Both the position numbers and the translations under genes were made by a program. Shown here in pieces: positions 1-52,086 of a stretch of DNA of 64,000 bases (the first letter of the stretch is position 1; the number at the start of each line of letters is the position of its first letter). This DNA is from Tepidanaerobacter acetatoxydans Re1. GTDB taxonomy: Bacteria > Bacillota > Thermosediminibacteria > Thermosediminibacterales > Tepidanaerobacteraceae. The notes under the pieces are model-generated. The model searched no databases, was not told the DNA's origin, and saw nothing but the letters and a program-made list of their open reading frames with translations. The stretch lies in NCBI RefSeq assembly GCF_000328765.2, contig NC_019954.2, forward strand, positions 2,567,780 to 2,631,779. The letters are read 5' to 3'.

Positions 1-20
1 TTTCATATTTTCAGCGTATA

Positions 21-55
21 AAAAGAATCTCACTAAGTGAGATTCTTTTTTTTTA
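21..55 (+). terminator. Intrinsic terminator ahead of the aro operon
   Basis: Perfect inverted repeat AAAGAATCTCAC / GTGAGATTCTTT with a short loop, followed by a run of T. It probably ends a transcript entering from the left edge. An attenuator belonging to a leader that lies mostly outside the window cannot be excluded. The 117 bases between it and aroF show no T-box core and no clear sigma-A promoter. Confidence 0.8.
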
Positions 56-172
56 ATAAAATTTGGTTTCGATGCAGAAATCCTTCCAAGATGAAGGTGG
101 TCTCATCTTCACAGGAATAGTTTTCTATATCGGAATCAAAGAATCAAATTTGTTTCAGGAGGGATAAGTATT

Positions 173-1186: not shown

Positions 1187-1196
1187 AGGTGATTAA

Positions 1197-2081
1197 ATGG
1201 ATTATTCAGACTTTAGTATGACGGTTGTCGGACTTGGACTTATAGGCGGTTCTCTGGCTATGGCCATTAAAGATAGGCTGAAGCCAAAAAACTTATGGGG
1301 TATAGATGTCAATACGAATGCGTTGGACTATGCCGAAAGTGCGGGACTTATTAACCGAGGCTTTTTATCTGCAAAAGAACCCCTCCAAAAATCTGATTTT
1401 GTCTTTATTTGCATATATCCTCGGGAAACTGCGGAATTCATAAGACAGAACATGGATAATTTCAAGTCCGGCGCCGTCATAACCGATACTACAGGTATCA
1501 AGGTGCCCATTATTTCCGAGATAGGCTCGATTTTAAGGGATGATGTGGATTACATAAGCGGACACCCCATGGCCGGCCGAGAGAGTAAGGGGCTGGAATT
1601 TGCACGGGAAAATATTTTTGAGGGTGCGGATTATTTAATAACACCTACCGAAAAAAATAAACCTGAAAATATTGCACTAATAGAGGATATCGTAAAGCAA
1701 TTGGGCTTCGGCCATGTAGTCCGGCTAACTCCGCAGCAGCATGATAATATGATTGCTTTTGTAAGCCATCTCCCCCATGTGATTGCTGCGGCATTGGTCT
1801 TAAATCCAATTTTGGAAAAGGAAACTCTGTATTTCGGAGGCAGCTTTCGGGATATAACAAGAGTTGGCCGCATAAACCCTGATTTATGGTCACAACTGCT
1901 GCTGGATAATGGGGATTATGTTATAAAGCACTTGAAAATCTTTGAAGACAGCATACAAGATTTTATACAAGTCATCGACAGCCAAGATGAAACCCGGCTC
2001 AAAGCTCTTTTAGCAAAGGCATGCGAGCGAAAGGAGGGGCTTGATTTAAGTGTTGACGCTCGATGTAAATCCGGGAAATAA
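1197..2081 (+). CDS. tyrA: Prephenate dehydrogenase
   Basis: Oxidatively decarboxylates prephenate to 4-hydroxyphenylpyruvate, the tyrosine branch. The Rossmann fold starts near residue 9 with VVGLGLIGGSLA. SGHPMAGRESKG and SHLPHVIAAAL are the conserved prephenate-site segments. At 294 residues it is the short form without a C-terminal ACT domain, so feedback control, if any, would have to act elsewhere. It starts at an ATG preceded by GAGGTGATTA, and its last 32 bases overlap aroB, which implies translational coupling. Confidence 0.95.
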   Translation: MDYSDFSMTVVGLGLIGGSLAMAIKDRLKPKNLWGIDVNTNALDYAESAGLINRGFLSAKEPLQKSDFVFICIYPRETAEFIRQNMDNFKSGAVITDTTGIKVPIISEIGSILRDDVDYISGHPMAGRESKGLEFARENIFEGADYLITPTEKNKPENIALIEDIVKQLGFGHVVRLTPQQHDNMIAFVSHLPHVIAAALVLNPILEKETLYFGGSFRDITRVGRINPDLWSQLLLDNGDYVIKHLKIFEDSIQDFIQVIDSQDETRLKALLAKACERKEGLDLSVDARCKSGK

Positions 2082-3117
2082 AACTTATACCGTGTATATT
2101 GAAAAAGGTTTGATTTGTCGGCTGGGAAGTATGTTAAAAAATACAGTAAAGGCTGAAAAGGTTGCCGTTATTACCGATGAAAACGTCAATGGCCTTTATG
2201 GCAAGCAGGTATTAAACTCATTGGAGTCAGAAGGTTTTGACACATATTTAATTGTAGTTGACGCAGGAGAAAGAAGTAAATCTTCATCTACGCTTATGAA
2301 GGTATATAAAGAATTGCTCGATAGCAAAATCACCCGATGGGACTGCATTCTTACATTGGGAGGCGGAGTTGTGGGAGATTTGGGAGGATTTGCGGCAGCT
2401 ACTTTTTTACGAGGAATCCCTTATGTCCAAGTTCCCACAAGCCTTATTGCTCAGGTCGACAGCAGCATAGGCGGTAAGGTGGGCATCGATTTGCCGGAAG
2501 GTAAAAACTTAATCGGCAGTTTCTACCATCCTGAAGCCGTATTTATTGATACAAACCTTTTGAATACCCTTGATGAAAGATTTTTCAGCGATGGCATGGG
2601 CGAAGTAATAAAATATGGCTGCATAAAAAATCGCAGTCTTTTTGAACAGCTTCTGAATTTTAAAACAAAGGATGAGCTTTTAAGCAATATGGAGCAAATC
2701 ATACTTACATGTTTGAATATTAAAAAAGAAGTAGTGGAACAGGACGAGCGAGATACCGGCTGCCGAATGATATTAAATTTCGGGCATACCCTGGGTCATG
2801 CCATAGAAAAATATTTCGATTATATCACATATACTCATGGGGAAGGAGTGGCGATAGGGATGTACCAGATAACTAAAAAAAGCGAACAAATGGGCATAAC
2901 CGAACCCGGCACAAGCCAACTCTTGAAAGAGGCCTTTTTAAAATACGGACTTCCTTATGAACTGCCTCAAGCTAATATAAACGAGCTTATAAATGCTATC
3001 GGTACAGATAAAAAAAGCAGTGGCAAGTATATCAATATTGTATTGCTAAAATCCATCGGGGAATGTTTTGTAGAGAAGATTAGTCAAAATAAAGTCTTTG
3101 AGTTTTTTAGTTTTTAA
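2050..3117 (+). CDS. aroB: 3-dehydroquinate synthase
   Basis: Converts DAHP to 3-dehydroquinate using NAD and a divalent metal. The 355-residue protein shows the NAD-binding stretch GGGVVGDLGGFAAATF, the PTSLIAQVDSSIGGK signature and metal-ligand contexts GMGEVIKYG, NFGHTLGHAIE and THGEGVAIG. Translation probably starts at the GTG at 2050 (a TTG follows directly), behind the AAGGAGGGGC inside the tyrA end. Full length for the family; no anomalies seen. Confidence 0.96.
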   Translation: MLTLDVNPGNKTYTVYIEKGLICRLGSMLKNTVKAEKVAVITDENVNGLYGKQVLNSLESEGFDTYLIVVDAGERSKSSSTLMKVYKELLDSKITRWDCILTLGGGVVGDLGGFAAATFLRGIPYVQVPTSLIAQVDSSIGGKVGIDLPEGKNLIGSFYHPEAVFIDTNLLNTLDERFFSDGMGEVIKYGCIKNRSLFEQLLNFKTKDELLSNMEQIILTCLNIKKEVVEQDERDTGCRMILNFGHTLGHAIEKYFDYITYTHGEGVAIGMYQITKKSEQMGITEPGTSQLLKEAFLKYGLPYELPQANINELINAIGTDKKSSGKYINIVLLKSIGECFVEKISQNKVFEFFSF

Positions 3118-3145
3118 AATACCAATATAAAAGCAGGTGTTATTA

Positions 3146-4450
3146 ATGAAAAACCTAGAGGTGTCATTGCCTTTTCCCAATGGTGAAGTCTTTATTCCTC
3201 CCTCAAAAAGCATAAGCCACCGCATGCTTATATGTGCAGGTCTTGCCGAAGGGGAAAGCATATTGCAAAATATTGCGTTTTCCGATGATATTATTGCCAC
3301 TAAAAACGGCATAAAGGCATTTGGAGCAAAAATCCGATACCTCGGCAATTATATCAGTGATAAGGCAAATGATGTTGCCGTTAAGGGAATCAAGCTCGCA
3401 AATATCAGGGATAACTTGACAATAGACTGCAAGGAATCCGGTTCTACCCTGAGGTTTTTAATACCGATTGCATTAGCTTACGGAAAGCAGGTTACGTTTA
3501 TCGGACGTGGAAGGCTTTTTGATAGGCCGCTTGATGTGTTTTATGATGTGTTTAGGAAACATGGCATAAATTATTTTATGGAAAATGACAAACCGTCTTT
3601 GACTGTTGCAGGTAAACTAAAGCCGGATACATTTAATATAAAAGGTAATGTAAGCTCCCAATTCATTTCCGGCCTGCTATTTGCCCTTCCCTTGCTGGAA
3701 GGCGACTCCCTTATCATAACAACAACCCCGGTAGAATCAAAGGCATACATAGACCTTACGATTGATGCTTTGAAAAGGTTTGATGTGAAAGTGGAAAATC
3801 AAGATTATGAGCAGTTTTCTATAAAAGGCAGGCAAATTTATAAAGCCGCTGACTGCCGTGTGGAGGGAGATTTTTCCCAGGGGGCTTTTTGGCTTGCCGC
3901 AGGGGTTTTAGGCGGTAGTATTACCTGCTTTAATCTAGATATCAATTCACATCAAGGCGATAAATACATCGTTGATATAATCCGCAAAATGGGCGCACAG
4001 CCTGTCATAGGAAAGAATTTTATTAAAGTCGAAGCATCAAATACTCATGGGGTAACTGTAGATGCGGCACAATGCCCCGACCTGGTACCCATCGTTGCTG
4101 TGCTGGGGGCTTTAAGCCGGGGAACTACGCAAATCTTAAATGCCGGGCGGCTGCGAATAAAGGAATCCGACAGGCTAAAGGCCATATCTTTGGAGCTTAG
4201 CCACTTGGGGGCAAAAATCGTGGAACTTGCCGACGGCCTTATCATAGAAGGTAGGGATATGCTTGATGGCGGTATTGTTGACAGTTGGAACGACCACAGG
4301 ATAGCCATGGCACTTGCCGTAGCCTCTGTCAGATGTCGCAACCCAGTCATCATAAAGCACAGTGATGCGGTAAGTAAATCTTACCCGGGGTTTTGGAAGG
4401 ATTTTATAAAGTTGGGAGGTGTGGTAGATGAGTTCGATTTTCGGGCGTAA
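3146..4450 (+). CDS. aroA: 3-phosphoshikimate 1-carboxyvinyltransferase (EPSP synthase)
   Basis: Transfers enolpyruvate from PEP to shikimate-3-phosphate. About 434 residues forming two inside-out alpha/beta barrels, with the shikimate-phosphate motif PPSKSISHR near the N-terminus, ESGSTLRFLIP, and the C-terminal GRLRIKESDRL and WNDHRIAMALA motifs. I chose the ATG at 3146 because AGGTG sits seven bases before it; the in-frame GTG at 3137 lies inside that ribosome site. The end overlaps aroC by 23 bp. The serine in SKSISHR and the sequence around it resemble class II enzymes more than the E. coli class I type; this is an impression and was not computed. Confidence 0.96.
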   Translation: MKNLEVSLPFPNGEVFIPPSKSISHRMLICAGLAEGESILQNIAFSDDIIATKNGIKAFGAKIRYLGNYISDKANDVAVKGIKLANIRDNLTIDCKESGSTLRFLIPIALAYGKQVTFIGRGRLFDRPLDVFYDVFRKHGINYFMENDKPSLTVAGKLKPDTFNIKGNVSSQFISGLLFALPLLEGDSLIITTTPVESKAYIDLTIDALKRFDVKVENQDYEQFSIKGRQIYKAADCRVEGDFSQGAFWLAAGVLGGSITCFNLDINSHQGDKYIVDIIRKMGAQPVIGKNFIKVEASNTHGVTVDAAQCPDLVPIVAVLGALSRGTTQILNAGRLRIKESDRLKAISLELSHLGAKIVELADGLIIEGRDMLDGGIVDSWNDHRIAMALAVASVRCRNPVIIKHSDAVSKSYPGFWKDFIKLGGVVDEFDFRA

Positions 4451-5537
4451 TTTTAAGGTCTCTATTTTTGGCGAATCACATGGCAAGGCCGTTGGTGTCG
4501 TTTTGGACGGACTGCCTTCCGGCATCAGGCTAAATATGGAGTTTATTGAGCAAGAAATGGCTCGAAGGCGGCCGGGAAAAAGCCCACTTTCAACTTTGCG
4601 GTCTGAAAGTGATTCCTTTGAAATACTGAGCGGATATTTTAACGAAGCCACTACCGGCACGCCCCTTTGTGCGGTAATTTTCAACAGTGACTGTGCATCG
4701 GATGACTATGCCCCGATGAAAAGTTTACTGCGGCCGGGCCATGTCGATTACACGGGTTTCGTCAAATACGGCGGGTTTAATGACTATCGTGGCGGAGGTC
4801 ATTTTTCAGGCAGGCTCACGGCTCCGCTGGTTTTTGCAGGAGCAGTGGCAAAACAGGCTTTGCAAATGGACAACATCCTCGTCGGAAGCCATGTAAAAAG
4901 CATCTGTCATGCGGAAGACGAAAGCTTTGACAGTGCAAATATCGATGAAAATACTTTAAAAGAATTAAGAAACCTCGCAATCCCGGTTTTAAACCGAGAT
5001 GCAGGCGAAAAAATGGCACAGTGCATATTGGATGCGAAAAACGACAGGGATTCGGTGGGAGGTGTTATCGAAACCGCTGTCCTCAACCTGCAGCCGGGGC
5101 TGGGCTCACCCTTTTTTGACAGTATGGAGAGCTGTCTTGCACATATTTTATTTTCCATACCGGCAGTAAAAGGCGTTGAATTCGGTGAAGGTTTTAATAT
5201 TACAAAAATGAGAGGGTCTAAAGCAAATGACGCATTTATAATAGATGAAAATAAAATTAAAACAGCAACAAATTATAACGGCGGCATACTCGGCGGGATT
5301 ACGAACGGGATGCCGGTGGTGTTTAGGGTTGCGATAAAACCTACTCCTTCCATAGGCATCCAACAGCAAACGGTCGATTTTTTAAAAAATCAAGAAGCAA
5401 CAATATCAGTCAAAGGCAGGCATGACCCCTGTATTGTGCCGAGAGCGGTACCGGTGATAGAAGCGGCGGCAGCTATTGTTATCTTAGATTTGATTTTGGA
5501 AAGGTATGGTGAGGCATGGACGAATTGGAAGAACTGA
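4428..5537 (+). CDS. aroC: Chorismate synthase
   Basis: Makes chorismate from EPSP by 1,4-elimination, with reduced FMN as cofactor. The 369-residue protein carries the family signatures [10 protein letters not shown] near the N-terminus, [10 protein letters not shown] and [14 protein letters not shown], plus the C-terminal [19 protein letters not shown]. It starts inside the end of aroA and overlaps the chorismate mutase gene by 22 bp, so supply and first use of chorismate are translationally linked. Confidence 0.97.
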
Positions 5538-5803
5538 GAGCCCGGATAGATGAAATAGACGCTAAGCTTGTAGAGCTGTTTGAAAAGCGGATGGAAATAT
5601 CGCATAAGATTGCTTTATATAAGATAGCAAATGATATGCCTATAACAAATGACGAAAGAGAAAAGGAAGTCTTAAACAAAAATATAGCAAGATTAAAGGA
5701 CAGGGGTTTTGAACCTAAGCTTGTGGAATTTTTTTCAATGCTTTTTAAGTTGAGTAAAGAAGTTCAGAATGAAGAATTTAAAAAACAGACTAAATATCAA
5801 TGA
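5516..5803 (+). CDS. Monofunctional chorismate mutase (AroQ class)
   Basis: Rearranges chorismate to prephenate. The 95-residue all-helical domain begins with the typical [20 protein letters not shown] helix and contains the ISHKIALYK segment, whose arginine and lysine positions line the active site in AroQ-class mutases. It is a free-standing domain, not fused to prephenate dehydratase or DAHP synthase. It overlaps aroC and precedes aroE by nine bases. No prephenate dehydratase gene lies in the window, so the phenylalanine branch must be encoded elsewhere. Confidence 0.9.
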   Translation: MDELEELRARIDEIDAKLVELFEKRMEISHKIALYKIANDMPITNDEREKEVLNKNIARLKDRGFEPKLVEFFSMLFKLSKEVQNEEFKKQTKYQ

Positions 5804-5812
5804 GGTGATGGT

Positions 5813-6628
5813 GTGAGCAGTATATATGGCCTCATAGGTGAAAGTTTAAGTCATAGCCTTTCACCGGAAATCCATGAAAGTTTTTTCCTTAAAACCGGTG
5901 TTTTAGGAAAGTACGGGCTTTTTGAGGTAAAAAGAAAATACTTGCATGATGCCGTCCTAGGGCTCAAGGCTCTCGGCATAAAGGGCGCAAATGTCACTAT
6001 TCCTTATAAGACGGAGATTATCAGGTTTCTTGATAATATGTCTGATGAAGCTGAAAAAATAGGAGCTGTCAATACATTAATTGTAAAAGAAGATAAAATC
6101 GCGGGGGATAATACGGATTACTACGGTTTTGGCATGACACTTGACAGGCATCATATTGAGCCAAAAGGCAAAACTGCGGTAGTCCTGGGGACAGGAGGCG
6201 CATCCAGAGCAATTGTGCAATACCTTTTGGACAATGACATAGGAGATATTACCCTAGTAAGTACTCATGTTCAAAAGGCCAAGGAGCAATTTCCGGGTTT
6301 AAGCATTATATCATATGAAGATTTGCACTGCATAAATGAAAGGGATATTTTGATAAACTGCACTCCGGTCGGCATGTTTCCAAATATGAAAGACAGTCCT
6401 GTTTGTGCTGCCCATGTTGCAAAATTCAAAGCTGTGATTGATCTCATATACAATCCAAAACAGACCATTCTTTTAAAGTCAGCCCAGGAGCTTAATATAC
6501 CGGCAATAAACGGACTTTATATGTTGGTGGCTCAGGCGGCAAAAGCTCAAGAGCTGTGGAATGAAATTGCTGTTGATAAAAAAATTATTGAACTGGTTTA
6601 TCTGCAAATAGATGGGAAGATCAGATAA
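5813..6628 (+). CDS. aroE: Shikimate dehydrogenase
   Basis: Reduces 3-dehydroshikimate to shikimate with NADPH. The 271-residue protein shows the substrate motif SLSHSLSPEIH, the catalytic lysine in NVTIPYK, the NTDYYGF motif, the Rossmann loop GTGGASRAI and the late NCTPVGM and DLIYNP motifs. It starts at a GTG behind AATGAGGTGATG. Its stop overlaps the aroK start by one base (TAATG). Confidence 0.96.
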   Translation: MSSIYGLIGESLSHSLSPEIHESFFLKTGVLGKYGLFEVKRKYLHDAVLGLKALGIKGANVTIPYKTEIIRFLDNMSDEAEKIGAVNTLIVKEDKIAGDNTDYYGFGMTLDRHHIEPKGKTAVVLGTGGASRAIVQYLLDNDIGDITLVSTHVQKAKEQFPGLSIISYEDLHCINERDILINCTPVGMFPNMKDSPVCAAHVAKFKAVIDLIYNPKQTILLKSAQELNIPAINGLYMLVAQAAKAQELWNEIAVDKKIIELVYLQIDGKIR

Positions 6629-7143
6629 TGAAAGATAACTACGACAATATCGTGTTAATAGGTATGCCGGGCTCGGGAAAAACAAGTATCGGCAGGATTT
6701 TAGCAAAAAAGATTAATATGTGCTTTTATGATTTGGATGAATATATTGAACGCAAATCCGGGAAAAGAATAACGGAAATTTTCGCCATATACGGGGAAAG
6801 GCATTTCCGAACACTTGAAAGCTGTGCGGTGAAGGAAATAAGCAGCAAAACAAATGCTGTCATTTCCACCGGCGGAGGAGTAGTGCTTGACAGTAAAAAT
6901 ATGCATGTTTTAAATAAGAGAGGCATTATATTCTTTATAAATCGCCCTGTGGAAGATATAGCCAATGATATAGAAATTTCCTGCAGGCCGCTGCTTGCAA
7001 ATGACAGGGATAACATATACCGGCTTTATAAGGATAGGTATGAGCTTTACAAAAAATGCTCCGACTTTGAGATTTTAAATGATAGAGGAATTTTAGAAGC
7101 GGTAAAGCAAATAATAGAGATTTTAAATAGGAATTATGCTTAA
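6628..7143 (+). CDS. aroK: Shikimate kinase
   Basis: Phosphorylates shikimate with ATP. The 171-residue P-loop kinase has Walker A GMPGSGKTSIG near residue 12, the DLDEYIE shikimate-binding aspartate region, the arginine in GERHFRTLE and the STGGGVV motif. It overlaps aroE by one base and is followed by a 62-bp gap before the aroQ start. Confidence 0.96.
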   Translation: MKDNYDNIVLIGMPGSGKTSIGRILAKKINMCFYDLDEYIERKSGKRITEIFAIYGERHFRTLESCAVKEISSKTNAVISTGGGVVLDSKNMHVLNKRGIIFFINRPVEDIANDIEISCRPLLANDRDNIYRLYKDRYELYKKCSDFEILNDRGILEAVKQIIEILNRNYA

Positions 7144-7205
7144 ATCTAGCGGTGCACCACAAAGGGTAGTAAAGATATATATATATGAAGGAAGGTAAAA
7201 AAAAT

Positions 7206-7637
7206 ATGAACATACTTATAATCAACGGACCAAATATTAATATGCTGGGTATAAGGGAAAAAGACATATACGGCGGTAAAACCTATAAAGATATGTGCGA
7301 CTTGCTGTATAAAAGTGCAAAGGAAATGGGTATTTGCCTGGTTATTGTCCAAAATAATATCGAAGGAGAAATAATCAACTATATTCAGGGCGCATACGGC
7401 AAGTATGATGGTATCATAATAAATCCCGGAGCCTACACCCATTATAGTATTGCCATATATGATGCCTTAAAAGCCATTGACATTCCGGCAGTAGAAGTGC
7501 ATATAAGTAATATTCAGGCAAGGGAAGAATTCAGAAAAAAATCGGTTACTGCCGGAGCGTGCATCGGGCAGATTTGCGGTTTTGGTATTTATGGATATAT
7601 AATGGCAATGCTTGCATTGAAAAATATCTTAGAATAA
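7206..7637 (+). CDS. aroQ: 3-dehydroquinate dehydratase, type II
   Basis: Dehydrates 3-dehydroquinate to 3-dehydroshikimate, completing the set of shikimate enzymes. About 143 residues forming the dodecameric class II fold. INGPNINMLG near the N-terminus, NPGAYTHYSIAIYDA and VEVHISN..AREEFRKKS are the class II signatures, with the catalytic tyrosine and histidine embedded. An in-frame ATG at 7185 exists, but AAGGAAGG sits just ahead of the ATG at 7206, where homologues start. The operon ends here and meets murI convergently. Confidence 0.95.
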   Translation: MNILIINGPNINMLGIREKDIYGGKTYKDMCDLLYKSAKEMGICLVIVQNNIEGEIINYIQGAYGKYDGIIINPGAYTHYSIAIYDALKAIDIPAVEVHISNIQAREEFRKKSVTAGACIGQICGFGIYGYIMAMLALKNILE

Positions 7638-7667
7638 TAATCAAAAAATATATCGGATATATTGGAT

Positions 7668-8477
7668 TTAAATTTGAGGGTCGATTACATTTATAGGATT
7701 TATAGGTCTTTTTAAGAAATTTTCACCTACCTGTACAAATTTTTCCGGATTGTCGCTGACAAAGTATTGGTAAAACGCCGGGGAATTGTCCTGCCGCTTT
7801 AGGTTTTTGTCAATTAAAATACGTTGTACTTCTCTTGCTGTTTCCCAAGCCGAATCCACCAGCCGGACAGTTTCCCCCATAACCTTCCCCAGAGTAAGCT
7901 TTAAAAGGGGGTAATGTGTACATGCCAGCACTAATGTATCAATTCCCTGCTTCTTTAAAGATTCTAAATAGGTTTTAGCAGTATAAAAGGCAGCCTCATT
8001 TTCCAACCATCCTTCCTCTACTAAAGGCACAAAGAGAGGACAGGCTTTTGAATGTATTTTTATTTGCTTATTTAGTGCATGTATAGCCCTTTCATATGCA
8101 CAACTCTTTATGGTGCGTTCGGTGCCGATTACTCCGACCACTTGGTTTTCAGTGGCAGCCACTGCCGCCCTTGCTCCCGGCTCTATCACTCCTATGACCG
8201 GTACCGGTGATGATGCACAAAGTTTATCGAGACATGTAGCGCTGACAGTGTTACACGCTATTACAATCAGTTTTACATCCTTGCCCAGTAAGAATCTAAG
8301 TCCCTCAAAGGCAAATTGTGTAACAACTTCCGAGGATTTAGGCCCATAAGGCACTCGAGCGGTATCCCCAAAATATACAATATTTTCTTTAGGTAGCAGC
8401 TTCATAATTTCTCCGGCCACAGTCAGGCCTCCGATACCTGAATCAAAAACTCCTATGGGTTTATTTCTAACATCCAT
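7668..8477 (-). CDS. murI: Glutamate racemase
   Basis: Interconverts L- and D-glutamate for peptidoglycan. The 269-residue protein contains IGVFDSGIGGLTVA, GDTARVPYGPKS, the first catalytic cysteine in IACNTVSA and the second in LACTHYPLL, the standard two-cysteine arrangement. It is monocistronic or distally linked: about 200 bp separate it from the next gene on the same strand. It converges on aroQ with only about 30 bp between the stops. Confidence 0.96.
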   Translation of the reverse strand: MDVRNKPIGVFDSGIGGLTVAGEIMKLLPKENIVYFGDTARVPYGPKSSEVVTQFAFEGLRFLLGKDVKLIVIACNTVSATCLDKLCASSPVPVIGVIEPGARAAVAATENQVVGVIGTERTIKSCAYERAIHALNKQIKIHSKACPLFVPLVEEGWLENEAAFYTAKTYLESLKKQGIDTLVLACTHYPLLKLTLGKVMGETVRLVDSAWETAREVQRILIDKNLKRQDNSPAFYQYFVSDNPEKFVQVGENFLKRPINPINVIDPQI

Positions 8478-8631
8478 GATTTATCTCCGTCCCAATTATT
8501 GTAGTTTATTTATGCAAATCCAAATTCGAGCGCAAAAGTGCGGCTGTCAAAAGAAATTTTATCAGATAATATTATACTTCACTTTCTATAACAATAAAAG
8601 TATAAACTTAAACAGAGTCTATAGAACACTT

Positions 8632-8680
8632 AAAAAACAGGTTTAAAAATCGTTTTCGAGTGATTTATAAACCTGCTTTT
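8632..8680 (-). terminator. Intrinsic terminator of the PQQ-repeat gene
   Basis: On the minus strand AGCAGGTTTATAAATC pairs with GATTTTTAAACCTGTT around a short loop and runs into T residues. It begins immediately after the stop of the broken PQQ-repeat gene. The remaining bases up to murI (8478-8631) show nothing recognisable apart from the likely murI promoter area. Confidence 0.75.
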
Positions 8681-9405
8681 TACTCGGGAGAAAGTTTTAT
8701 CAGTTCTCGTTGAGTTGCTGCAAATAAGCTCATGGCCCCCGGAACTATTGCAGTTATTTTTTTACCTTCAAGATGCGTTTTAGCATCTAATGTTTTGATA
8801 TCATAAGCCATAAGGCCACTCTCTGTGCCTATAAAAAATGTATTGGGGCATACAATGGGCAAAGTAGTCGGAGCATCCGGCAAATCTATGACCCATATAA
8901 CCTCTGCTCTCTGAAAACTCAGTGCGGTAACTTCACCTCTGTAATTTGCCAGCAGCATAAAATCCTGATGAAAGGCCGGCATCATAAACTCCTCATCGGC
9001 AATCTTCTTCCTCCAAATGATTTCCCCCACCAATGGATTTAAAGCAGAAACCCATGAATCGCATGAAATGGTAAAAACCTTGCCGTCCCATATGGCCGGA
9101 GGTATTTGTATGATATCCGATATCTTGGTTTTCCAGCAAAGAATACCTTTTTCATCCAAACAGTAAATACATCTGTCATATGAGGCAAAATAAACAAAGT
9201 CATAACCTATGGCTGGAGAAGTAATATAGGCTCCGTAGGTTTTATAATTCCATTTCATATCGCCACTTTGATTAAAACAATAGAGGGTTCCGGAAGAAGG
9301 AGCATAAATTTGTGTTTTGTTGGCTGCTGCCGGCAAAATGAAGTTATCCTGTTTTAAGGTTTTTTGAGTTTTCCCTGAGTAAAAGTCTAAAATTGCCAAA
9401 CTGCC

Positions 9406-9646
9406 GGAATAGATGAAGCTGTTGTAGGCCTAGTTCCAGTTGATTTAGACACTGACGAGGAACTTAAGGTTGTAAGTGTAAGTGCTATTAATGCTAAAGA
9501 AGTTCAAATTAAGTTTAGTAAAGCTGTGAAAAAAGACACAGTCATCACTACAGGTGCACCTGATACGTTAAAGAATATAACTTTCACAAATATCGGAAGT
9601 GCTCCAGCTATTACTTCTACTTCAGCAGAAGCTAAGCTAAGCGCCA
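9406..9646 (+). pseudogene. Fragment of an S-layer/Ig-like domain gene inserted in the PQQ-repeat gene
   Basis: On the plus strand this stretch is an open frame of about 79 codons with neither start nor stop of its own. It reads AGIDEAVVGLVPVDLD, then VVSVSAINAKEVQIKFSKAV, then KKDTVITTGAPDTLKNITF. The pattern (V-x-S-V-S-A-x-N-x-K-E-V-x-I-x-F-S-K-A-V) is that of the Ig-like repeats following SLH domains in S-layer proteins. Codons are strongly biased to GCT, GTT, AAA and CCA, as in highly expressed surface-layer genes and unlike the neighbours. Both ends abut interrupted PQQ-gene sequence, with GG shared at the junctions. The parent gene is not in the window. Confidence 0.75.
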
Positions 9647-9798
9647 GGCAGGCACGATTACATGGCCTTCAAAAATTGTAGATGAACTTTCGGGAAACAA
9701 TTCCGAGCTTTTCCAAAGTCTTTCGCCGGATTTTAAATCTATGGCAAGGACTTCTTTTCGAGTTGTTACGATTAATCTGTCCGCCGAGCAATTTAATC
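9645..9798 (+). repeat. 154-bp block, copy A of an identical inverted pair
   Basis: These bases, read in reverse complement, are identical throughout to 15815-15968. In this copy the block is native PQQ-repeat coding sequence, so it is the likely donor. Its left end coincides, within about two bases, with the junction to the inserted S-layer-type fragment. Confidence 0.9.
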
Positions 9799-10234
9799 CG
9801 ATTATATCAGGGATGGGCCTAATCCAGCTGATTTTAAGTTGTTTGGGGATTGGAACAGGCGAATAGCCCGAATGCCTATAATCCCGTTGTATTGTGCGCC
9901 ATTTATTGATGCCGCATCGCATAAGTTCTTTTAGTATTTCAAATTCATCATCATCCACGATACCGTTTTGTTTTATATGAAAAGCCCTTTGGAATTCTCT
10001 GACTGCTTGCATGGTCTCATAGCCGAACACTCCATCAATACGAGCATTAAAGACTCCCAGTCTCTTTAATACCTGCTGCAAATGACGCACATCACTGCCT
10101 TTCAATAGCGGCTTTTGTTTTTTAAGCGGTCGACTGCCAAAAGGTATTACAGGTAGTCTCAAGGAATCACCACCTGCCTATTAGAAGATATATTTAGTAT
10201 ATTCGACGAAGGGTTAATTGGTTACGGGGACTAT

Positions 10235-10265
10235 AAAAACCAGGGCAAATATCGCCCTGGTTCTT
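10235..10265 (-). terminator. Terminator of the spore protein gene
   Basis: AACCAGGGC / GCCCTGGTT hairpin with a seven-base loop. On the minus strand it is followed by TTTTAT, and it lies 22 bp after the stop of the small acid-soluble spore protein gene. Confidence 0.8.
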
Positions 10266-10286
10266 GTGCGCTTTCTTCAGGAGTTG

Positions 10287-10481
10287 CTATTTCTTGGGGT
10301 TCCCATTCTCTTCGGCCAGTGCTTTTTCCGCTTTTTCAATAGCAAGTCTTACCAAATTACCACAATTTCTGGAAGAAACTCCACCCCATCCTTCTTTCGC
10401 CACCGTGTCAGCCACACCAAGTTCCTTTGCAAGTTCATACTTGAGGTCCTCAGACATGACACTACGACGACGAGCAGCCAT
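10287..10481 (-). CDS. Small acid-soluble spore protein, alpha/beta type
   Basis: A 64-residue DNA-coating protein of the spore core, expressed late in the forespore and protecting DNA in dormancy. Family segments are SEDLKYELAKELGVADTV, with the germination-protease recognition region, and the DNA-contacting GWGGVSSRNCGNLVRLAIE. I chose the second of two close ATGs, since GGAGG lies seven bases before it; the first ATG almost touches the ribosome site. It is a single gene with its own terminator. The cleavage site is less canonical than in SspA/B, so the SspF-like branch is likely. Confidence 0.93.
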   Translation of the reverse strand: MAARRRSVMSEDLKYELAKELGVADTVAKEGWGGVSSRNCGNLVRLAIEKAEKALAEENGNPKK

Positions 10482-10566
10482 GAGCATGCCTCCTTTTTTA
10501 TAACGCACTATTATTATTTTGCCTTTAAAGGCTATTGTTTATGTTGAATTATTTTACCAATTGTTT

Positions 10567-12069
10567 TTATACAACTTGCTTTATTCTCTCATAATATTTC
10601 ACCGATTCTATATCGGCTAATACCTTTATCGACTTGGCGTCGGGGTCTTCCGTGCCCTGCAAATGGCAGCCTTCGGAATTCAATGCTTTAGCATATTCTA
10701 TAACTTCCCTGGTTATGCGTTCACCGGGGCATAGGATTGGAATTCCGGGAGGATATGCCATAAGCATCTCGGTGCTGATTTCGCCTTCGGCTTCTTCTAA
10801 GGGAACGACTCGTTTTTCACTATAGAAGGCAAATCGGGGAGAAACTACCATTTCCTGGTTTTCCGGAAGTTCGGCACTTATTTTTATGACATTTTTACGG
10901 CTGTATTTTAATGCGATATCCCTTATTGCTGCAATCAAAGCACTGATACTCTCTTCACTGTCGCCTATTGCTCCCACAGCCAGCACATTATACAAATCTG
11001 AAAGTTCCATCTGAATATGATATTTGTATTTTAACAACTTTTCGGTTTCAAAACCGGATAAGCCTAATTCTCTTAAGTTTATAGCAAGCTTTGTCGGGTC
11101 ATATGCGAAACAACCTTCAGTGCCTTCTACATCATGTCCCATTACATAAATACCATTTATATCATTTAACAACCGTCTTGCCCTTTCACACCGCTCTATT
11201 GTCACATCAAGCATCTGTCTGCCGTTTATGGCCATTTGCCTGCGGGCAACATCAAGGGAAGCCATGAGTGGATACGATGGGCTTGTGGTTTGAGTCAAGT
11301 TCATGGCTGCTTTAACTCTTCTGTCATCGATCAAATCACTTTTTATCAATAAAATGGAGCTTTGAGTCATAGAACCTGCAAGCTTATGCATACTTGCAGC
11401 ACTCATATCTGCTCCGGCTTGCATAGCCGACATAGGTAAATCGGGGTGAAATCCTAAATGAGCTCCATGTGCTTCGTCGACTATCACCGGCTTGCCATAT
11501 GAATGAGCAATTTCTACAATTTTTTTAAGATCCGATGCCACACCATAGTATGTTGGATTTATCACAAAAACCGCCTTGGCATTTGGATGTTCCACCAGAG
11601 CACGTCTGACACTATCCGCAGTTATACCCATGGCTATTCCCATATAGTCATTGATAACGGGTTTTATATAAACCGGATGTACACCACTTAAGATTAAGCC
11701 TCCTACCACTGAACGATGGGCATTTCTGGGAACAATTATTTCATCGCCGGGTCCGGCTACTGATAATATCATAGCCTGAATACCCGAAGTAGTACCATTT
11801 ACAAGAAAATGAGCATGATCCGCACCAAAGGCACGAGCCGCTAAATCTTCTGCTTCATGGATAACTCCCAAGGGATTACATATAGTATCAAGATCTAAAA
11901 TTCCGGAAGTAACATCGATTGACATTATGTTTTCTCCCACAAAATCACAAAACTCAGGTATTCCTCTGCCGCCTCTGTGTCCGGGTACATGGAATGAAAT
12001 GGTCTTGTCTTCCACATACTTCTTCAGGGCGGCAAAAAGCGGTGTTTTTTGCTGCTCGTTGAATTTCAT
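10567..12069 (-). CDS. Orn/Lys/Arg decarboxylase family protein (SpeA-like)
   Basis: PLP enzyme of the aspartate-aminotransferase fold, 500 residues, the size of Bacillus SpeA-type arginine or lysine decarboxylases. Visible motifs are FHVPGHRGGRG near residue 27, the cofactor aspartate/histidine in VDEAHGAHLGF, the PLP lysine in SMHKLAGSMTQSSIL, and the C-terminal PPGIPILCPGE. The likely role is polyamine biosynthesis by decarboxylating a basic amino acid; substrate cannot be decided from sequence alone. The ATG at 12069 is preceded by AAGGGGAGTG. It is a single gene between the spore protein gene and a stretch without genes. Confidence 0.9.
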   Translation of the reverse strand: MKFNEQQKTPLFAALKKYVEDKTISFHVPGHRGGRGIPEFCDFVGENIMSIDVTSGILDLDTICNPLGVIHEAEDLAARAFGADHAHFLVNGTTSGIQAMILSVAGPGDEIIVPRNAHRSVVGGLILSGVHPVYIKPVINDYMGIAMGITADSVRRALVEHPNAKAVFVINPTYYGVASDLKKIVEIAHSYGKPVIVDEAHGAHLGFHPDLPMSAMQAGADMSAASMHKLAGSMTQSSILLIKSDLIDDRRVKAAMNLTQTTSPSYPLMASLDVARRQMAINGRQMLDVTIERCERARRLLNDINGIYVMGHDVEGTEGCFAYDPTKLAINLRELGLSGFETEKLLKYKYHIQMELSDLYNVLAVGAIGDSEESISALIAAIRDIALKYSRKNVIKISAELPENQEMVVSPRFAFYSEKRVVPLEEAEGEISTEMLMAYPPGIPILCPGERITREVIEYAKALNSEGCHLQGTEDPDAKSIKVLADIESVKYYERIKQVV

Positions 12070-12425
12070 TTAGAGTCACTCCCCTTTCAATTTCTATTAG
12101 AAGCCAACTGATATACATGCTAATTTGCCAAGGCTTCAATTTTAATATTCTTTTAAGCAAATACAATTAAAGCACAGTTTCTATCTAATTTCAATACTAT
12201 ATTAAAATTTTTTTTGTAAAATATGTAGCAAGTAAGAGGAAACTGTATGAACCTCAGTGATTTATTGAAATTATTATTGATAGAAATACATTGGAGTGTA
12301 TAGCAGGGCATTGCGCAATATTACGGGTTTTTTTAACTGCAAATAAAAAGGCAATATATAAAGCCCAAACTCGTGCTTATGCTTGCCGAGCTTGGGCTTT
12401 ATTATGGCAGGGATGTTTATTTAGT
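12070..12425. other. Intergenic region between the decarboxylase gene and spoIIR
   Basis: The first 190 bases are AT-rich upstream sequence of the decarboxylase gene. An 18-codon frame at 12247-12303 (+) has a GAGG site but no family resemblance. A stem-loop at 12360-12403 serves as the spoIIR terminator. Nothing else was recognised. Confidence 0.6.
12360..12403 (-). terminator. Probable spoIIR terminator
   Basis: AAAGCCCAA-x-CTCG pairs with CGAG-x-TTGGGCTTT around a 13-base loop, with one mismatch, 23 bp beyond the spoIIR stop. The T-tract on the minus strand is short (TTTATAT). Confidence 0.6.
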
Positions 12426-13145
12426 TTATTTAAAGGTGAGCTTAATAGTTTTATTGATTTTTCCTTTCGTCTCTTCCCACCAGTCCAACACTTTGAATCG
12501 GATTTCTATGGGAACGTCTTCGGGTGCTTTGGCTGTTTCTATTGCGGCCATTTCTTTCGGTGTCAGCACTTGGCTCATTCGCATCCTTGTTTCATCCGGA
12601 TCTTGCTTTTGGCTTACATCTACAAAGCATAGAGGAGGGAATAGTATGCACCACCAATTGGCTCCTTTGCCGTTCCCTATAATTACTCGCAGTGCTTCAT
12701 ATTCTCCGGCCGGAAGAGTGATATATCCATAGTTTTTGACCGGAAATAAAAATTTACCAAACATAGCAGTCACACTGTAGTTTTTGCCGCTTTTTTTGAT
12801 TTCTTCGCTTGCTATTTCTTCAATGTATTTCAAGTTATTCTTTATAAATTCCCGAGATACGTTGATATCATCAATGCCTTCAAATTTTTTGTCAAAGGTT
12901 TCTACTATCGCATCTCTTACCCGGAGTTTTAAGTCTTGGTCCTCGGGAGAGTCGCTGTTGGCGATGACATGAAGTCTAATAAGCTTCGATGAAAGCTGCT
13001 GTGCCGTAACATCACATGTATCACTGTCTATACCTATGCCGCCGGCCATGCCGCTTGTACCTGCCAATGCCGCAAGCAATGACATTAAAAGTATACAAAT
13101 AGTGACTATTGCAGTTTTCTTAAACAACTTTGATTTGTATTGCAT
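12426..13145 (-). CDS. spoIIR: Stage II sporulation protein R
   Basis: Forespore-secreted signalling protein that activates the SpoIIGA protease, triggering processing of pro-sigma-E in the mother cell. 239 residues: an N-terminal membrane/signal segment (about 10-32, IVTICILLMSLLAALAG), then the conserved SSKLIRLHVIANSDSPEDQDLKLRVRD region and a C-terminal part with GNGKGANWWCILFPPLCFVD. I chose the ATG at 13145, preceded by GAGAGGTC, over the upstream ATG at 13208. With the spore protein gene nearby it supports an endospore-former. Confidence 0.93.
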   Translation of the reverse strand: MQYKSKLFKKTAIVTICILLMSLLAALAGTSGMAGGIGIDSDTCDVTAQQLSSKLIRLHVIANSDSPEDQDLKLRVRDAIVETFDKKFEGIDDINVSREFIKNNLKYIEEIASEEIKKSGKNYSVTAMFGKFLFPVKNYGYITLPAGEYEALRVIIGNGKGANWWCILFPPLCFVDVSQKQDPDETRMRMSQVLTPKEMAAIETAKAPEDVPIEIRFKVLDWWEETKGKINKTIKLTFK

Positions 13146-13474
13146 ATGACCTCTCCCCTGTCTTAAGGCTTTGTTATTATTGTTCCCAAAACTGCTTTTT
13201 ATAATCACGCATTTATATTTTTTTATTGCAAACTATAATATTTTTAACCATTGTATGTATCATTATATGGATTTCTACATCAGGATATATCTTCTCAGTT
13301 CTTTCATATCTTCTCCATAATCTTGCTGCTATAATTATGTAAATAACTTCCAGTCATCACGATAATAGTGTAAACTTAATTCCTGAGCAGAAACCTTCTT
13401 TTGCTGGATTTATGGTCAAAACGCAATATAACTTACTATTATAAAAAGAAAATAAAATTTTATCAGTAATCTAT

Positions 13475-13503
13475 TTGACAAAAATCACCACTAATACTAT
13501 AAT
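13475..13503 (+). promoter_or_regulatory. Sigma-A promoter of the radical SAM-arsR unit
   Basis: Perfect TTGACA and TATAAT hexamers separated by 17 bases. The predicted start site (about 13510) lies three bases before an ArsR-like operator, so repressor binding would block initiation. Confidence 0.85.
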
Positions 13504-13512
13504 AAAATATGA

Positions 13513-13536
13513 ACATATCGTTATATAATTATATGT
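13513..13536 (+). promoter_or_regulatory. Candidate ArsR-type operator
   Basis: A 24-bp imperfect palindrome made of half sites ACATATCGTTAT and ATAATTATATGT, pairing at 10 of 12 positions, just downstream of the -10 box. A second pair, TCGTTA/TAACGA (13518-13523 and 13544-13549), overlaps it. The ArsR-family gene at the end of the same transcript suggests autoregulation; this is inference. Confidence 0.5.
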
Positions 13537-13571
13537 AGTTATGTAACGAAATTGATAAGGAGGTAGTTTCT

Positions 13572-14927
13572 ATGGATCTAGCCCGCACATATCTTGGTGA
13601 AAAGGTTGTAAGTCAAGGTGTTAAGTATTTGTTGTCACGGGATATGGATGATATCGGGAAGTTGATAAGCTGGGCGGAAAAATTACCCATGCCGGCACAT
13701 CAACGCGAAGATCTTAAGGCTGTTAGTAAGTTTTTAGAAGACAAAAACTCTAACTGGTACAAACTTGGGCAAAGAATTCTTTTGGAAACAGATCCTAAAG
13801 TAAAAGAAAAACTGGGTTTGAACTTCTTTGTAAATGCTAATTTTTTAGGAGTTCCAAAACAGCAGAAAATGGCAAAAGAGTTGGGCTACTCGGTGCCTTG
13901 GGCTATTTTAATCGACCCTACGGAAAGGTGCAACTTAAATTGCATAGGCTGCTGGGCGGGAGATTATTCTCGGCATGAAGAACTGGATTTTGATACTTTA
14001 GACAGAGTCTTCACTGAATGTGAAGAACTTGGCATATACTTTATAATTATGTCCGGCGGAGAACCCACCATGCGGAAAAAGGATATTATAAAATTAGCTG
14101 AAAAGCATCCATCACAAGCATTCCTGCTGTTTACCAACGGCACTTTGGTTGATGATGAGTTTGTCGCCGAAATGAAGCGTGTGGGAAATATAACATTGGC
14201 CTTTAGTATTGAAGGCTTTGAAGAAACAACTGATGCCCGCCGAGGTAAAGGCACATTTAAGAAAGTAATGGAAGCCATGGACCGTATGCGTAAGGCAGGC
14301 CTTATTTACGGTGTTTCGGTAACATACAATAGAAACAATACAGAAGAGCTGGCAAGCGAAGAATTTGTAGATATGCTGGTGGATAAGGGTGTGGTTTATG
14401 CCTGGTATTTCACTTATATACCTGTGGGAAAAGATGTAGATGTTGACCTAATGGCCACTCCCGAACAGAGAGCATATATGTATGAAAAAGTGCTTGAGTA
14501 CAGACGTACAAAGCCGATTTTCATCATGGACTTTTGGAATGACGGCGAGGCTTCCAATGGCTGTATAGCCGGAGGCAAGCGTTATCTGCACATTAATGCC
14601 CGAGGCGATGTTGAACCCTGTGCATTTGTGCATTATGCAAGCTGCAATATAAAAGATGTATCATTAAAAGAGGCCTTAGGTTCGCCGCTTATGAGAGCAT
14701 ATCAGAAACGGCAGCCATTTAATATGAATCACCACAGGCCTTGCCCTCTTATCGACAATCCGGAAATGATGGTAGAAATTGTAAAAGAAAGCGGTGCATA
14801 TCCGACTCAGCTAAATCCTGACGAAACACCTGAGGAGTTTGCTGAAAAGCTTACCCCTTATGCACAGAAATGGGGTCAAATAGCTGATGAAAAATGGAGT
14901 AAGAGTTCAGTTGCAAATGTTAAATAA
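13572..14927 (+). CDS. Radical SAM protein with SPASM-like C-terminus
   Basis: 451-residue radical S-adenosylmethionine enzyme. The [4Fe-4S] motif C120-x3-C124-x2-C127 lies in DPTERCNLNCIGCW, followed by the SAM-binding SGGEPTMR. Extra cysteines in the C-terminal third (NGCIAGGKRYLHI, GDVEPCAFVHYASC, HHRPCPLIDNP) match an auxiliary-cluster SPASM/twitch region. An N-terminal helical segment of about 100 residues precedes the core. The substrate is unknown. Related proteins include peptide maturases and lipid-modifying enzymes, and no precursor peptide is seen nearby. It starts behind AAGGAGG and shares a promoter with an arsR gene 35 bp downstream. Confidence 0.85.
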   Translation: MDLARTYLGEKVVSQGVKYLLSRDMDDIGKLISWAEKLPMPAHQREDLKAVSKFLEDKNSNWYKLGQRILLETDPKVKEKLGLNFFVNANFLGVPKQQKMAKELGYSVPWAILIDPTERCNLNCIGCWAGDYSRHEELDFDTLDRVFTECEELGIYFIIMSGGEPTMRKKDIIKLAEKHPSQAFLLFTNGTLVDDEFVAEMKRVGNITLAFSIEGFEETTDARRGKGTFKKVMEAMDRMRKAGLIYGVSVTYNRNNTEELASEEFVDMLVDKGVVYAWYFTYIPVGKDVDVDLMATPEQRAYMYEKVLEYRRTKPIFIMDFWNDGEASNGCIAGGKRYLHINARGDVEPCAFVHYASCNIKDVSLKEALGSPLMRAYQKRQPFNMNHHRPCPLIDNPEMMVEIVKESGAYPTQLNPDETPEEFAEKLTPYAQKWGQIADEKWSKSSVANVK

Positions 14928-14962
14928 TATTTAAATAAGTTGCCGAAAAGGAGGTCCTTTGG

Positions 14963-15271
14963 TTGGTATTAAGCCTTTCTGAGTATAAAGTTGAGTTTCT
15001 GCGAGGGCTAGCAGATAATACGCGATTAAAAATCGTTGAAGCCTTAAAAGAACAGGAAAAAACCGTATCCGAATTAGTTGAAACTGTTGGAAGTTCGCAG
15101 GCTAATATATCAACACATCTAAAACTACTTAAAACAACCGGCATAGTTAAAAGCCTCAGCAAGGGCAAGTATATGTATTATAGTTTAAGGGACGAAGCAA
15201 TTTGTGAGTTTTTAAATTCTCTGGAAGAAATGCTTATTCTAATGAGAAAAAAAGCCTTTGAAGGCGCTTAA
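14963..15271 (+). CDS. ArsR-family transcriptional regulator
   Basis: 102-residue winged-helix repressor. The helix-turn-helix runs over about 34-70 (KTVSELVETVGSSQANISTHLKLLKTTGIV), and the N-terminal helix has the family ADNTRLKIVEAL. The wing is SKGKYMYYSLRD. It lacks the ELCVCDL-type metal site of ArsR/CadC, so the signal is unknown. The TTG start at 14963 has AAGGAGGT seven bases upstream. It follows the radical SAM gene and probably controls it through the palindrome at 13513. Confidence 0.88.
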   Translation: MVLSLSEYKVEFLRGLADNTRLKIVEALKEQEKTVSELVETVGSSQANISTHLKLLKTTGIVKSLSKGKYMYYSLRDEAICEFLNSLEEMLILMRKKAFEGA

Positions 15272-15291
15272 AACGTGGTTATCTCTGAAAG

Positions 15292-15338
15292 AAAGATAAG
15301 GGGCTGTTGTGCAATATGCAGCAGCCCCTTATCTTTTT
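15292..15338 (+). terminator. Terminator of the radical SAM-arsR unit
   Basis: Strong hairpin AAAGATAAGGGGCTG / CAGCCCCTTATCTTT with a U-rich tail, 21 bp beyond the arsR stop. Confidence 0.92.
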
Positions 15339-15456
15339 ATAAATGCTCTTTCAGTGCATATCTGTTTTAACAGTCTTTTAATTATTATTGCTTTTGCACA
15401 TGGAGTTACTTGGTTTTTGCACTCAAATCTTTATTTAATTAATCTTTATTTAATTG

Positions 15457-15485
15457 TTGATACCTCTCTGTTTTTGCTTTATACT
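15457..15485 (+). promoter_or_regulatory. Sigma-A promoter of the ACT-UPF0210 unit
   Basis: TTGATA and TATACT with a 17-base spacer, about 65 bp ahead of the ATG at 15551. The direct repeat AATCTTTATTTAATT occurs twice just upstream. Confidence 0.65.
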
Positions 15486-15550
15486 TGTTACATAATAACA
15501 TTAACTGGAGGTGTTTTAGCCGGTTATATTCATTAATCGGTTACATTTTT

Positions 15551-16154
15551 ATGGAAATATTGGTTACTCTTGATGTATTAAAACAACATAAAGGCGAAGA
15601 AATCATTGAATTCCCGCCTGGAACACTTATAACCAAAGAAGCCCGGATATATGCGGCAAAGCAGGGAATGAAATTGTACGTAGGCAAACAGCAGGTGCCT
15701 GAACCCGGTTATTCCAACGGCATCTCAAGTGTTCGCGCCGTTATATCTGTTATAGGGGAAGACCGAGTTGGGATTATCGCCGGCATATCCGATGTGCTTG
15801 CAAAATCCAATGTCGATTAAATTGCTCGGCGGACAGATTAATCGTAACAACTCGAAAAGAAGTCCTTGCCATAGATTTAAAATCCGGCGAAAGACTTTGG
15901 AAAAGCTCGGAATTGTTTCCCGAAAGTTCATCTACAATTTTTGAAGGCCATGTAATCGTGCCTGCCTGAACATTCTTGATATTACTCAAACCGCAATCGA
16001 AGGGCTTTTTACCATGATTATGGTTGTAGATATCAGCAAGTCAAATATAGATTTTGATGCATTAAAATCCAGGCTCTCTCAAAAGGGACAGGAGCTGGCA
16101 GTTCGTGTTGATGCTCAGCGGGAAGAAGTATTTCATTTTATGCACAGAATATAA
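15551..16154 (+). pseudogene. ACT-domain protein (UPF0237 type), interrupted by 151 bp
   Basis: Codons 1-89 (to 15817) encode a short N-terminal module (FPPGTLITKEARIYAAKQG, like the T-x-x-A-x-x-x-A-x-x-x-G motif of cobalamin adenosyltransferase/EutQ-type proteins). They continue into an ACT domain (RAVISVIGEDRVGIIAGISD, SNVD). The frame meets TAA at 15818 inside an insert that copies part of the PQQ-repeat gene. From 15969 the ACT domain resumes exactly in register (NILDITQTAIEGLFTMIMVV) and ends with FHFMHRI, the usual end of this family. Excising 15818-15968 gives 150 residues. The family is typically paired with UPF0210, which follows here by 12 bp. Its function is unknown; ACT domains bind small ligands. 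The ATG at 15551 lacks a clear ribosome site; GGAGGTG lies about 40 bp further up. Confidence 0.8.
15815..15968 (-). repeat. 154-bp block, copy B of the inverted pair, inside the ACT gene
   Basis: Identical in reverse orientation to 9645-9798. It splits the ACT domain codons between SNVD and NILD and introduces an immediate stop. The trinucleotide GAT is shared at the left junction. Perfect identity implies a recent event or an assembly join. Confidence 0.9.
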
Positions 16155-16166
16155 GGAGTGACAGTA

Positions 16167-17531
16167 ATGAACTTTACCCGAGATGAAATCATTGAAACAA
16201 TACGCATGGTGCAAGCAGAGCAATTGGACATTAGAACTGTTACACTGGGAATAAGCCTTAGGGATTGTGCAGGTCCTTCGATTTCTTGTGTGGCCGATAA
16301 GATTTATGATAAGTTAATGGAAAAAGGCAGCGAATTGGTGCCTGTAGCCCTTGAACTTGAAAAGGAATTCGGCATACCCATAGTGAATAAGCGAATTTCT
16401 GTAACTCCAATTGCTCTGGTGGCTGAAAGCTGCAAGGAAAGCGATTATACTCCAATAGCCTTTGCCATGGATAGAGCCGCAAAAGAACTAGGTATTGATT
16501 TTATAGGCGGGTTTTCTGCACTGGTGCAAAAGGGTTTTACCCGGGGAGATATGAACCTGCTCAATTGTATTCCCGAAGCCCTTTCAGGCACGGAGCGCGT
16601 TTGTTCTTCCGTCAATGTGGCTACCAGCAAAGCGGGAATAAATATGGATGCGGTCCGGGCTATGGGCAGTATAATCAAAGAAGTGGCGCAATTAACCGAA
16701 AAACAAGACGGAATCGGTGCCGCTAAACTGGTGGTTTTTGCCAATGCTCCTGATGACAATCCTTTTATGGCAGGGGCCTTTCATGGGCCTGGCGAACCGG
16801 AAACCGCAATAAATGTGGGTATCAGCGGACCCGGAGTGGTAAATACGGTTGTATCTAATCTTTCTACAGAAGCTGATTTAGGCGAGGTGTCAGAGGTTAT
16901 TAAACGAATGGCTTTTAAAATTACCCGTGTAGGAGAGCTTATCGGTCGTGAGGCATCCCGAAGATTGGGAGTGCCCTTCGGCATCATAGACCTGTCCCTT
17001 GCTCCGACTCCTGCGGTAGGCGACAGCATAGCAAATATTTTAGAAGCAATCGGCCTTGAACGCTGTGGTGCCCCGGGAACAACTGCAGCTTTAGCGCTTC
17101 TAAATGATGCGGTTAAAAAAGGTGGTGCCATGGCTACTTCTTATGTAGGAGGCCTTTCCGGCGCATTTATCCCCGTCAGTGAAGATGCAGGCATGATACG
17201 CGCTGCAGCCGATGGCGCACTTACCATAGAAAAGCTTGAGGCAATGACCTGTGTGTGTTCAGTAGGCCTTGACATGATAGCCATTCCCGGTGATACATCT
17301 GCCGAAACCATCACCGCTATCATTGCCGATGAAATGGCCATAGGAGTTATGAATAAAAAGACAACTGCCGTGAGAATAATACCGGCTCCCGGCAAAAAGG
17401 CCGGGGATTTTGTAGAATTCGGCGGCCTTTTAGGACGAGCTCCGGTAATGCCAGTTAGTTCCTTTGATTCGTCAGTCTTTGCCCAAAGAGGCGGCCAGAT
17501 TCCTCCACCTATACAGAGTTTGACAAATTAA
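16167..17531 (+). CDS. UPF0210 (DUF711, 'PFL family') protein
   Basis: 454-residue protein of the conserved UPF0210 family, structurally related to pyruvate formate-lyase-like barrels but without an established activity. Family stretches include [16 protein letters not shown] near the N-terminus, [37 protein letters not shown] and a C-terminal [14 protein letters not shown] chose the ATG at 16167, eight bases after AAGGAG; an in-frame GTG at 16158 lies within that site. Its usual partner, an ACT-domain protein, is the broken gene directly upstream, so loss of that regulator might leave this protein unregulated. Confidence 0.9.
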
Positions 17532-17612
17532 TAAATCAACAGTCAGACATCAAGGCTGTAAGATAATTGCAATAAATCAATTTTTTAGCTAAAATAGGCC
17601 TAAATGATTAAG

Positions 17613-46762: not shown

Positions 46763-46879
46763 TCCATTTTAAATGAATTTTTACATAGATTCCGCTTACC
46801 CTCTGCTGCAAAATATTTGATTTTATTCTGTTTTATAATTTTTCTTCTTATGTCAGTACTCTTAAAATCAAGTTTTTAA

Positions 46880-48859: not shown

Positions 48860-48862
48860 GGC

Positions 48863-51227: not shown

Positions 51228-51355
51228 ATTTAAGTCCTCCTTTATCACGGTATTTTGAAATCCAATGCATATGTGATTGTTAATACTTTCACAAATAAGA
51301 GCAAAAAATAAAGCCGTAAAATATTGGTTACCCGTGTCTTTTATCTTTGATAGAT

Positions 51356-51384
51356 ATTATATTTTATTGTTAAATATTTGTCAA
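51356..51384 (-). promoter_or_regulatory. hydCBA promoter with overlapping Rex-like operator
   Basis: Perfect TTGACA and TATAAT with 17-base spacing on the minus strand. The -35 region sits within TTGTTAAATATTTGTCAA (51367-51384, plus strand), which matches the Rex consensus TTGTTAA-N4-TTAACAA at 12 of 14 defined positions. Rex represses fermentative and hydrogenase genes at high NAD+/NADH; overlap with the -35 box fits repression. The leader is about 120 bases long. Confidence 0.8.
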
Positions 51385-51940: not shown

Positions 51941-51949
51941 AATTAACTA

Positions 51950-52004: not shown

Positions 52005-52086
52005 ATATTAGGCCGGCCAAGCTTTTAAATTATGCAAGCAGGCACTTGTCTTGGTCATTTTTACAACAGCAGTAATTCCTTTTTTA

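Follow-up and report, generated by a model that had tools for sequence, protein, structure and literature searches.

Exact inverted gene fragments within an ACT-domain gene and a PQQ-type gene of Tepidanaerobacter acetatoxydans Re1: local templated insertions or assembly scars

The biogas bacterium Tepidanaerobacter acetatoxydans Re1 carries, at three places in its genome, short exact copies (about 150-240 bases) of pieces of nearby genes in inverted orientation inside other genes, at sites which are empty in relatives. The explanation we favor is that these may be real, recent, local inverted templated insertions, in which a short gene copy (152-238 bp) taken from 6-33 kb away would have been inserted flipped into another gene. 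The weight given to this explanation was set by judgement rather than computed and leaves it evenly poised, an assembly artefact being nearly as likely. The window, i.e., the whole 64-kb stretch of DNA analyzed, corresponds to positions 2567780-2631779 of the single 2,761,252-bp contig (G000:C1); the features of the two interrupted genes are listed in Table 1.

Table 1. Features of the two interrupted genes and their inserts (window positions)
Feature	Position	Strand	Remarks
Interrupted ACT-domain gene	15551..16154	+	ACT_6; product of 149 aa in EBM-38
ACT-gene insert, 154 bp	15815..15968	+	152 bases of the PQQ-type gene (sense on +) plus TG; exact reverse complement of 9645-9798
Interrupted gene with PG_binding_1 domain and PQQ-type beta-propeller	8680..10162	-	single 413-aa frame without the insert
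Donor block in the PQQ-type gene	9645..9798	-	9647-9798 native; 9645-9646 (CA) junction filler, from the comparison with EBM-38
PQQ-gene insert, 241 bp	9406..9646	+	238 bp (9406-9643) of S-layer type, inverted with respect to the source, plus CCA (9644-9646)

The two interrupted genes of the window

The blocks present in the ACT-domain and PQQ-type genes are exact reverse complements of each other over 154/154 bases, as stated in the preliminary description, and the exact inverted repeat which they form does not extend beyond these 154 bp. The 64-kb window contains no other exact repeat of at least 30 bp, with the exception of one short self-complementary site. The insert brings a TAA stop codon (15818-15820) into the ACT-domain gene, the product of which ends with SNVD at the left junction, and the intact frame resumes with NILD past the block; the reported SNVD/NILD split (slashes denote the point of insertion) and the added stop were therefore confirmed. 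Without the insert, the frame is unbroken (SNV/NILD) and nothing has been lost at the target. The insert was not found in the congener EBM-38, in T. syntrophicus, or in the other relatives compared, the target in EBM-38 reading AATGTC/AACATTC with no bases in between, and the uninterrupted gene is also carried by T. syntrophicus and other relatives. The two junctions show 0 and 0 bp of microhomology: the GAT previously thought to be shared at one of them is the native end of the block, to which no bases of the ACT target correspond. No transposase or terminal repeat accompanies the block, in line with what had been noticed at first.

The idea that the block is native to the PQQ-type gene holds for 152 of its bases, but not for the other two (CA on the + strand, TG on that of the PQQ-type gene), which are non-native. 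The S-layer fragment said to enter this gene is real: it is an exact inverted copy (238/238) of contig positions 2543671-2543908(-), belonging to a gene located 33.5 kb upstream, the product of which contains a Big_5 domain and is signal-like at its N-terminus. In EBM-38, the target reads CTGCC/GGCAGG with no bases in between; one junction of the insert shows 2 bp of microhomology and the other the 3-bp filler CCA. Transcripts of the PQQ-type gene would include antisense sequence to that of S-layer type. The TG of the ACT copy, which is not ancestral (GG in EBM-38), consists of the very bases standing at the junction between the PQQ-type and S-layer-type sequences, so that this copy was either templated by the PQQ locus in its already altered form or arose along with it in a single episode. 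The end of the block coincides with the S-layer junction, and the linkage between captures proposed on this basis is borne out by the shared TG, which supports the view that the ACT and PQQ events are linked, the PQQ event having probably occurred first, or both at once.

EBM-38 is collinear with positions 1-17575 of the window, with 97-98% identity, and exactly two large differences exist in this region: the 239 extra aligned bases (241 net) of the PQQ-type gene and the 154 of the ACT-domain gene. Between positions 9647 and 15814, the small indels detected with respect to the relative are all intergenic, and the sequence around the inserts is of ordinary base-level quality. The comparison with related genomes yielded intact ACT-domain and PQQ-type genes in EBM-38 and an intact ACT-domain gene in T. 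syntrophicus; since the two Re1 genes carry no other lesions, the insertions must be either recent or artificial. The Re1-specific insertions checked against EBM-38 or T. syntrophicus were IS elements or DNA without any second copy.

Elsewhere in the window, a stretch of approximately 12 kb (46816-58875; contig positions 2614595-2626654) has an identity of 96.5-97% to T. syntrophicus G001:C8:287697-299214, and its neighboring genes show roughly 70-80% identity to that species. The first genes of this stretch encode FeFe-hydrogenase and NuoF-like subunits; among its other products are a DUF6063 protein and a protein of 1495 aa for which there is no Pfam match. Its high level of identity suggests that an exchange may have occurred recently between T. 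acetatoxydans and T. syntrophicus.

A third insertion and the properties of the breakpoints

The search for further short exact copies inside genes was performed by comparing 1.6 Mb of the genome (58%) with itself, and one more single-copy exact inverted fragment was found: positions 326748-326973 are copied at 337224-337449 (226 bp, 10.5 kb apart). Based on reading of the sequences rather than profile searches, the donor is the start of a gene encoding a methyltransferase of the UroD/MtaA kind, and the target lies inside a GntR-type regulator gene, which is uninterrupted in T. syntrophicus. This event is located outside the window, at a distance of about 0.5 Mb on the circle. The junction TATAATGC/AAGCCGC is loss-free, with a 2-bp overlap and a net gain of 224 bp, and the microhomology amounts to 2 and 1 bp at the two ends. 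Since the insert and the 5' coding part of its donor are complementary, the transcript of the broken gene would hold a 226-nt perfect antisense to the donor gene.

The three inserts are all inverted (n = 3 events, two of which are linked), measure 154-238 bp, and have donors which have been kept, 6.2 (ACT), 33.5 (PQQ), and 10.5 kb (GntR) away. The identity to the donors is 100% over all 618 copied bases, and no diverged, older counterparts were seen in the 1.6 Mb compared (58% of the genome). The probability of two independent donors both lying within 33.5 kb by chance is 6e-4. The remaining near-identical repeats are mostly IS elements, direct repeats beside IS elements, repetitive genes, and the 309-bp overlap between the ends of the contig; the inverted repeat 280556/285492 was rejected as a capture, being an IS remnant.

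Overall, the junctions share 0-2 bp of sequence and include one 3-bp filler; nothing is lost at the targets, and target-site duplications are absent. Both targets in the window break in the middle of a palindrome, GCC/GGC in the PQQ-type gene and GTC/AAC in the ACT-domain gene, and three of the eight breakpoints (these two targets and one end of the block) lie at the centers of 5-bp inverted repeats, as compared with 0.86% of random sites, the test having been chosen post hoc. These sequences resemble the blunt cut points of known restriction enzymes (GTC^AAC, GCC^GGC), but cutting of this kind was dropped because no recognition sequence is common to the ends of the donors and the GntR site.

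Possible origins of the inserts

Among the mechanisms initially put forward, template switching fits the data, since the donors are local and inverted. At a stalled fork or a break, illegitimate template switching might have taken place, or else a short nascent strand might have been displaced and captured. Short hairpins at the breakpoints could stall or break the fork; the 3' end would then quit its template, copy 150-240 nt off a nearby strand of opposite polarity, and rejoin at the point of departure. The PQQ-type gene, either first or in the same episode, would have gained the S-layer piece plus the CCA filler, and the new junction end and the adjoining 152 bases would then have been copied into the ACT-domain gene. 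The exact copies, their orientation and distances, the empty sites in relatives, the junctions with their shared filler, and the lack of a Ku match are observations; the copying and return of a polymerase at a fork, the order of the events, and the view that the inserts are not assembly scars are inferred. Several of the features by which FoSTeS/MMBIR is recognized are present, namely an exact copy with the donor kept, a target intact in relatives, and a donor close enough for the fork to reach it physically; junction microhomology of at least 2 bp, another such feature, is seen at one end of the PQQ insert and one end of the GntR insert, the ACT junctions having none. The junction bases of the GntR event differ from those of the window events, which also speaks for real events, as does the ordinary base quality around the insertions. 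On the other hand, perfect identity without any older, diverged examples is what an artefact would give, and loss-free joins, found here at 3/3 sites, are unusual for break repair and count against real events.

Most of the documentation of fork template switching comes from yeast and human cells, copying accidents of this kind have seldom been described in bacteria, and we know of no earlier description of a bacterial process of local, inverted, loss-free insertion of gene copies. Our search of the literature on short-patch double illegitimate recombination yielded nothing usable. The broader proposal that Re1 has undergone, or is still undergoing, a burst of local, always inverted, loss-free insertions of 150-240 nt, independent of Ku and mobile elements and responsible for at least three recent gene breaks in 1.6 Mb, seems unlikely. 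If the events are real, this Ku-less anaerobe with its recurrent inverted templated insertions, local donors, and clean empty sites would provide a natural system for studying bacterial fork template switching.

It is also quite possible, if a little less so, that Newbler contig ends had chimeric tails and that the scaffolds were then concatenated with these tails kept. The region 9645-15968 would in this case be one contig, with a copy of its own left end at the right, and would be preceded by a contig with an S-layer tail. The Re1 genome (HF563609) consists of 96 Ion Torrent/Newbler scaffolds concatenated with a reference-guided draft (PMC4374699; see also PMC3587937), a procedure by which chimeric tails or unmerged ends can be left behind, and a chimeric assembly is conceivable because the sequence is a concatenated draft of this kind. 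The contig ends (1-309 and 2760944-2761252) are identical over 309 bp, which means that the circle was never trimmed. The inserts of 154-241 bp have about the length of the Ion Torrent reads (mean approximately 173 bp, computed from 3.33 million reads at 209x), and the 100% identity of the copies, the absence of target loss, and the otherwise intact host genes are also in keeping with an artefact, as is the coincidence of the end of the 154-bp block with the S-layer junction, which would be expected of a contig end. At both junctions of that end, GCAGGCACG is preceded by CAG, a possible though weak residue of the TCAG sequencing key; this candidate was rejected, the fit being weak at the ACT/PQQ end and the GntR junctions having no key-like residue. 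Random chimeric tails, however, would be expected to come from distant donors in either orientation, whereas all three donors here are local and inverted, and no distant-donor copies, other tails, or unmerged overlaps were found in the 1.6 Mb compared apart from the contig ends, although dozens of scaffold joins are expected there. If the inserts are artefacts, the ACT-domain, PQQ-type, and GntR-type genes are wrongly broken in the reference genome, and the concatenated HF563609 assembly, used here as the genome of the species, will need correcting before being used in studies on pseudogenes.

It is improbable that free short DNA fragments, resulting from the degradation or uptake of self-DNA, were captured at blunt breaks through a form of end joining independent of Ku and without any fork copying. 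The loss-free, nearly homology-free joins with their CCA filler and the breakage of two targets at palindrome centers would suit this process, but the donors would be expected to be genome-wide and to occur in both orientations instead of being local and inverted. No Ku was found either: the genome gave no match to PF02735, the B. subtilis control being positive, which makes classical NHEJ unlikely, and the Ku-dependent end joining included among the first candidates was rejected on these grounds.

It is highly improbable that the inserts arose through the activity of a mobile or reverse-transcribing element, as a by-product of, e.g., one of the IS1634 type with very long target duplications: IS1634-like elements flanked by 78- and 346-bp direct repeats do occur in the genome, but no element, terminal repeat, or target-site duplication is present at the three insert sites, IS duplications flank their element directly whereas the copies here are inverted and ectopic, and a single partial match to a reverse transcriptase was obtained in the genome. 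Both IS1634 or other IS elements, for want of element ends at the inserts, and a reverse transcriptase, given this one partial match, were accordingly rejected as sources.

As regards the elements themselves, transposase elements of about 2 kb, assigned to the IS1634 type by reading, are located at contig positions 2262667-2265343, 2495372-2497513, 2071365-2073572, and 2178281-2180747; the direct repeats flanking these four elements measure 346, 78, 123, and 180 bp, and the case with the 346-bp repeat sits in a gene which reads as EF-Tu. An element of about 1.5 kb (2603525-2605077), IS110-like according to the reading of its transposase, has shorter, internally deleted relatives at 2154595-2155543, 68608-69532, and 1907447-1908130.

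Comparison with known systems

FoSTeS-type switching was first proposed to explain amplification in E. coli (PMC2621351). The insertions described here have in common with FoSTeS/MMBIR the short exact templated copies, the inversion, the several linked switches per episode, and the donors within reach. The junction homology is 2-15 bp in that system and 0-2 bp here, which is less than typical, and the present insertions, known from sequence alone, differ in being isolated and loss-free, without any surrounding deletion or amplification.

The insertions occurring at breaks in yeast (PMC11724301) are likewise short copies with 0-4 bp of junction homology, which include inverted pieces and can reach about 150 bp in some mutants. 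In yeast, however, the distant donors are genome-wide, most inverted pieces are very short foldbacks located next to the break, and the ends are joined by NHEJ, whereas here the donors lie at distances of 6-33 kb and no Ku was found.

Chimeric contig ends of stitched drafts resemble the present case in their exact copies of about read length, their loss-free joins, and the concatenated draft in which they occur, but donors which are all local and inverted are not expected of random chimeras.

Members of the IS1634 family have direct repeats of 8-514 bp, long duplications being known for IS1549/IS1634 (PMC2266710). Exact repeats of 78-346 bp are also found beside elements of this kind in the Re1 genome; these repeats are direct and flank an element, whereas the copies in the ACT-domain, PQQ-type, and GntR-type genes are inverted and lie kilobases from their donors, with no element in between.
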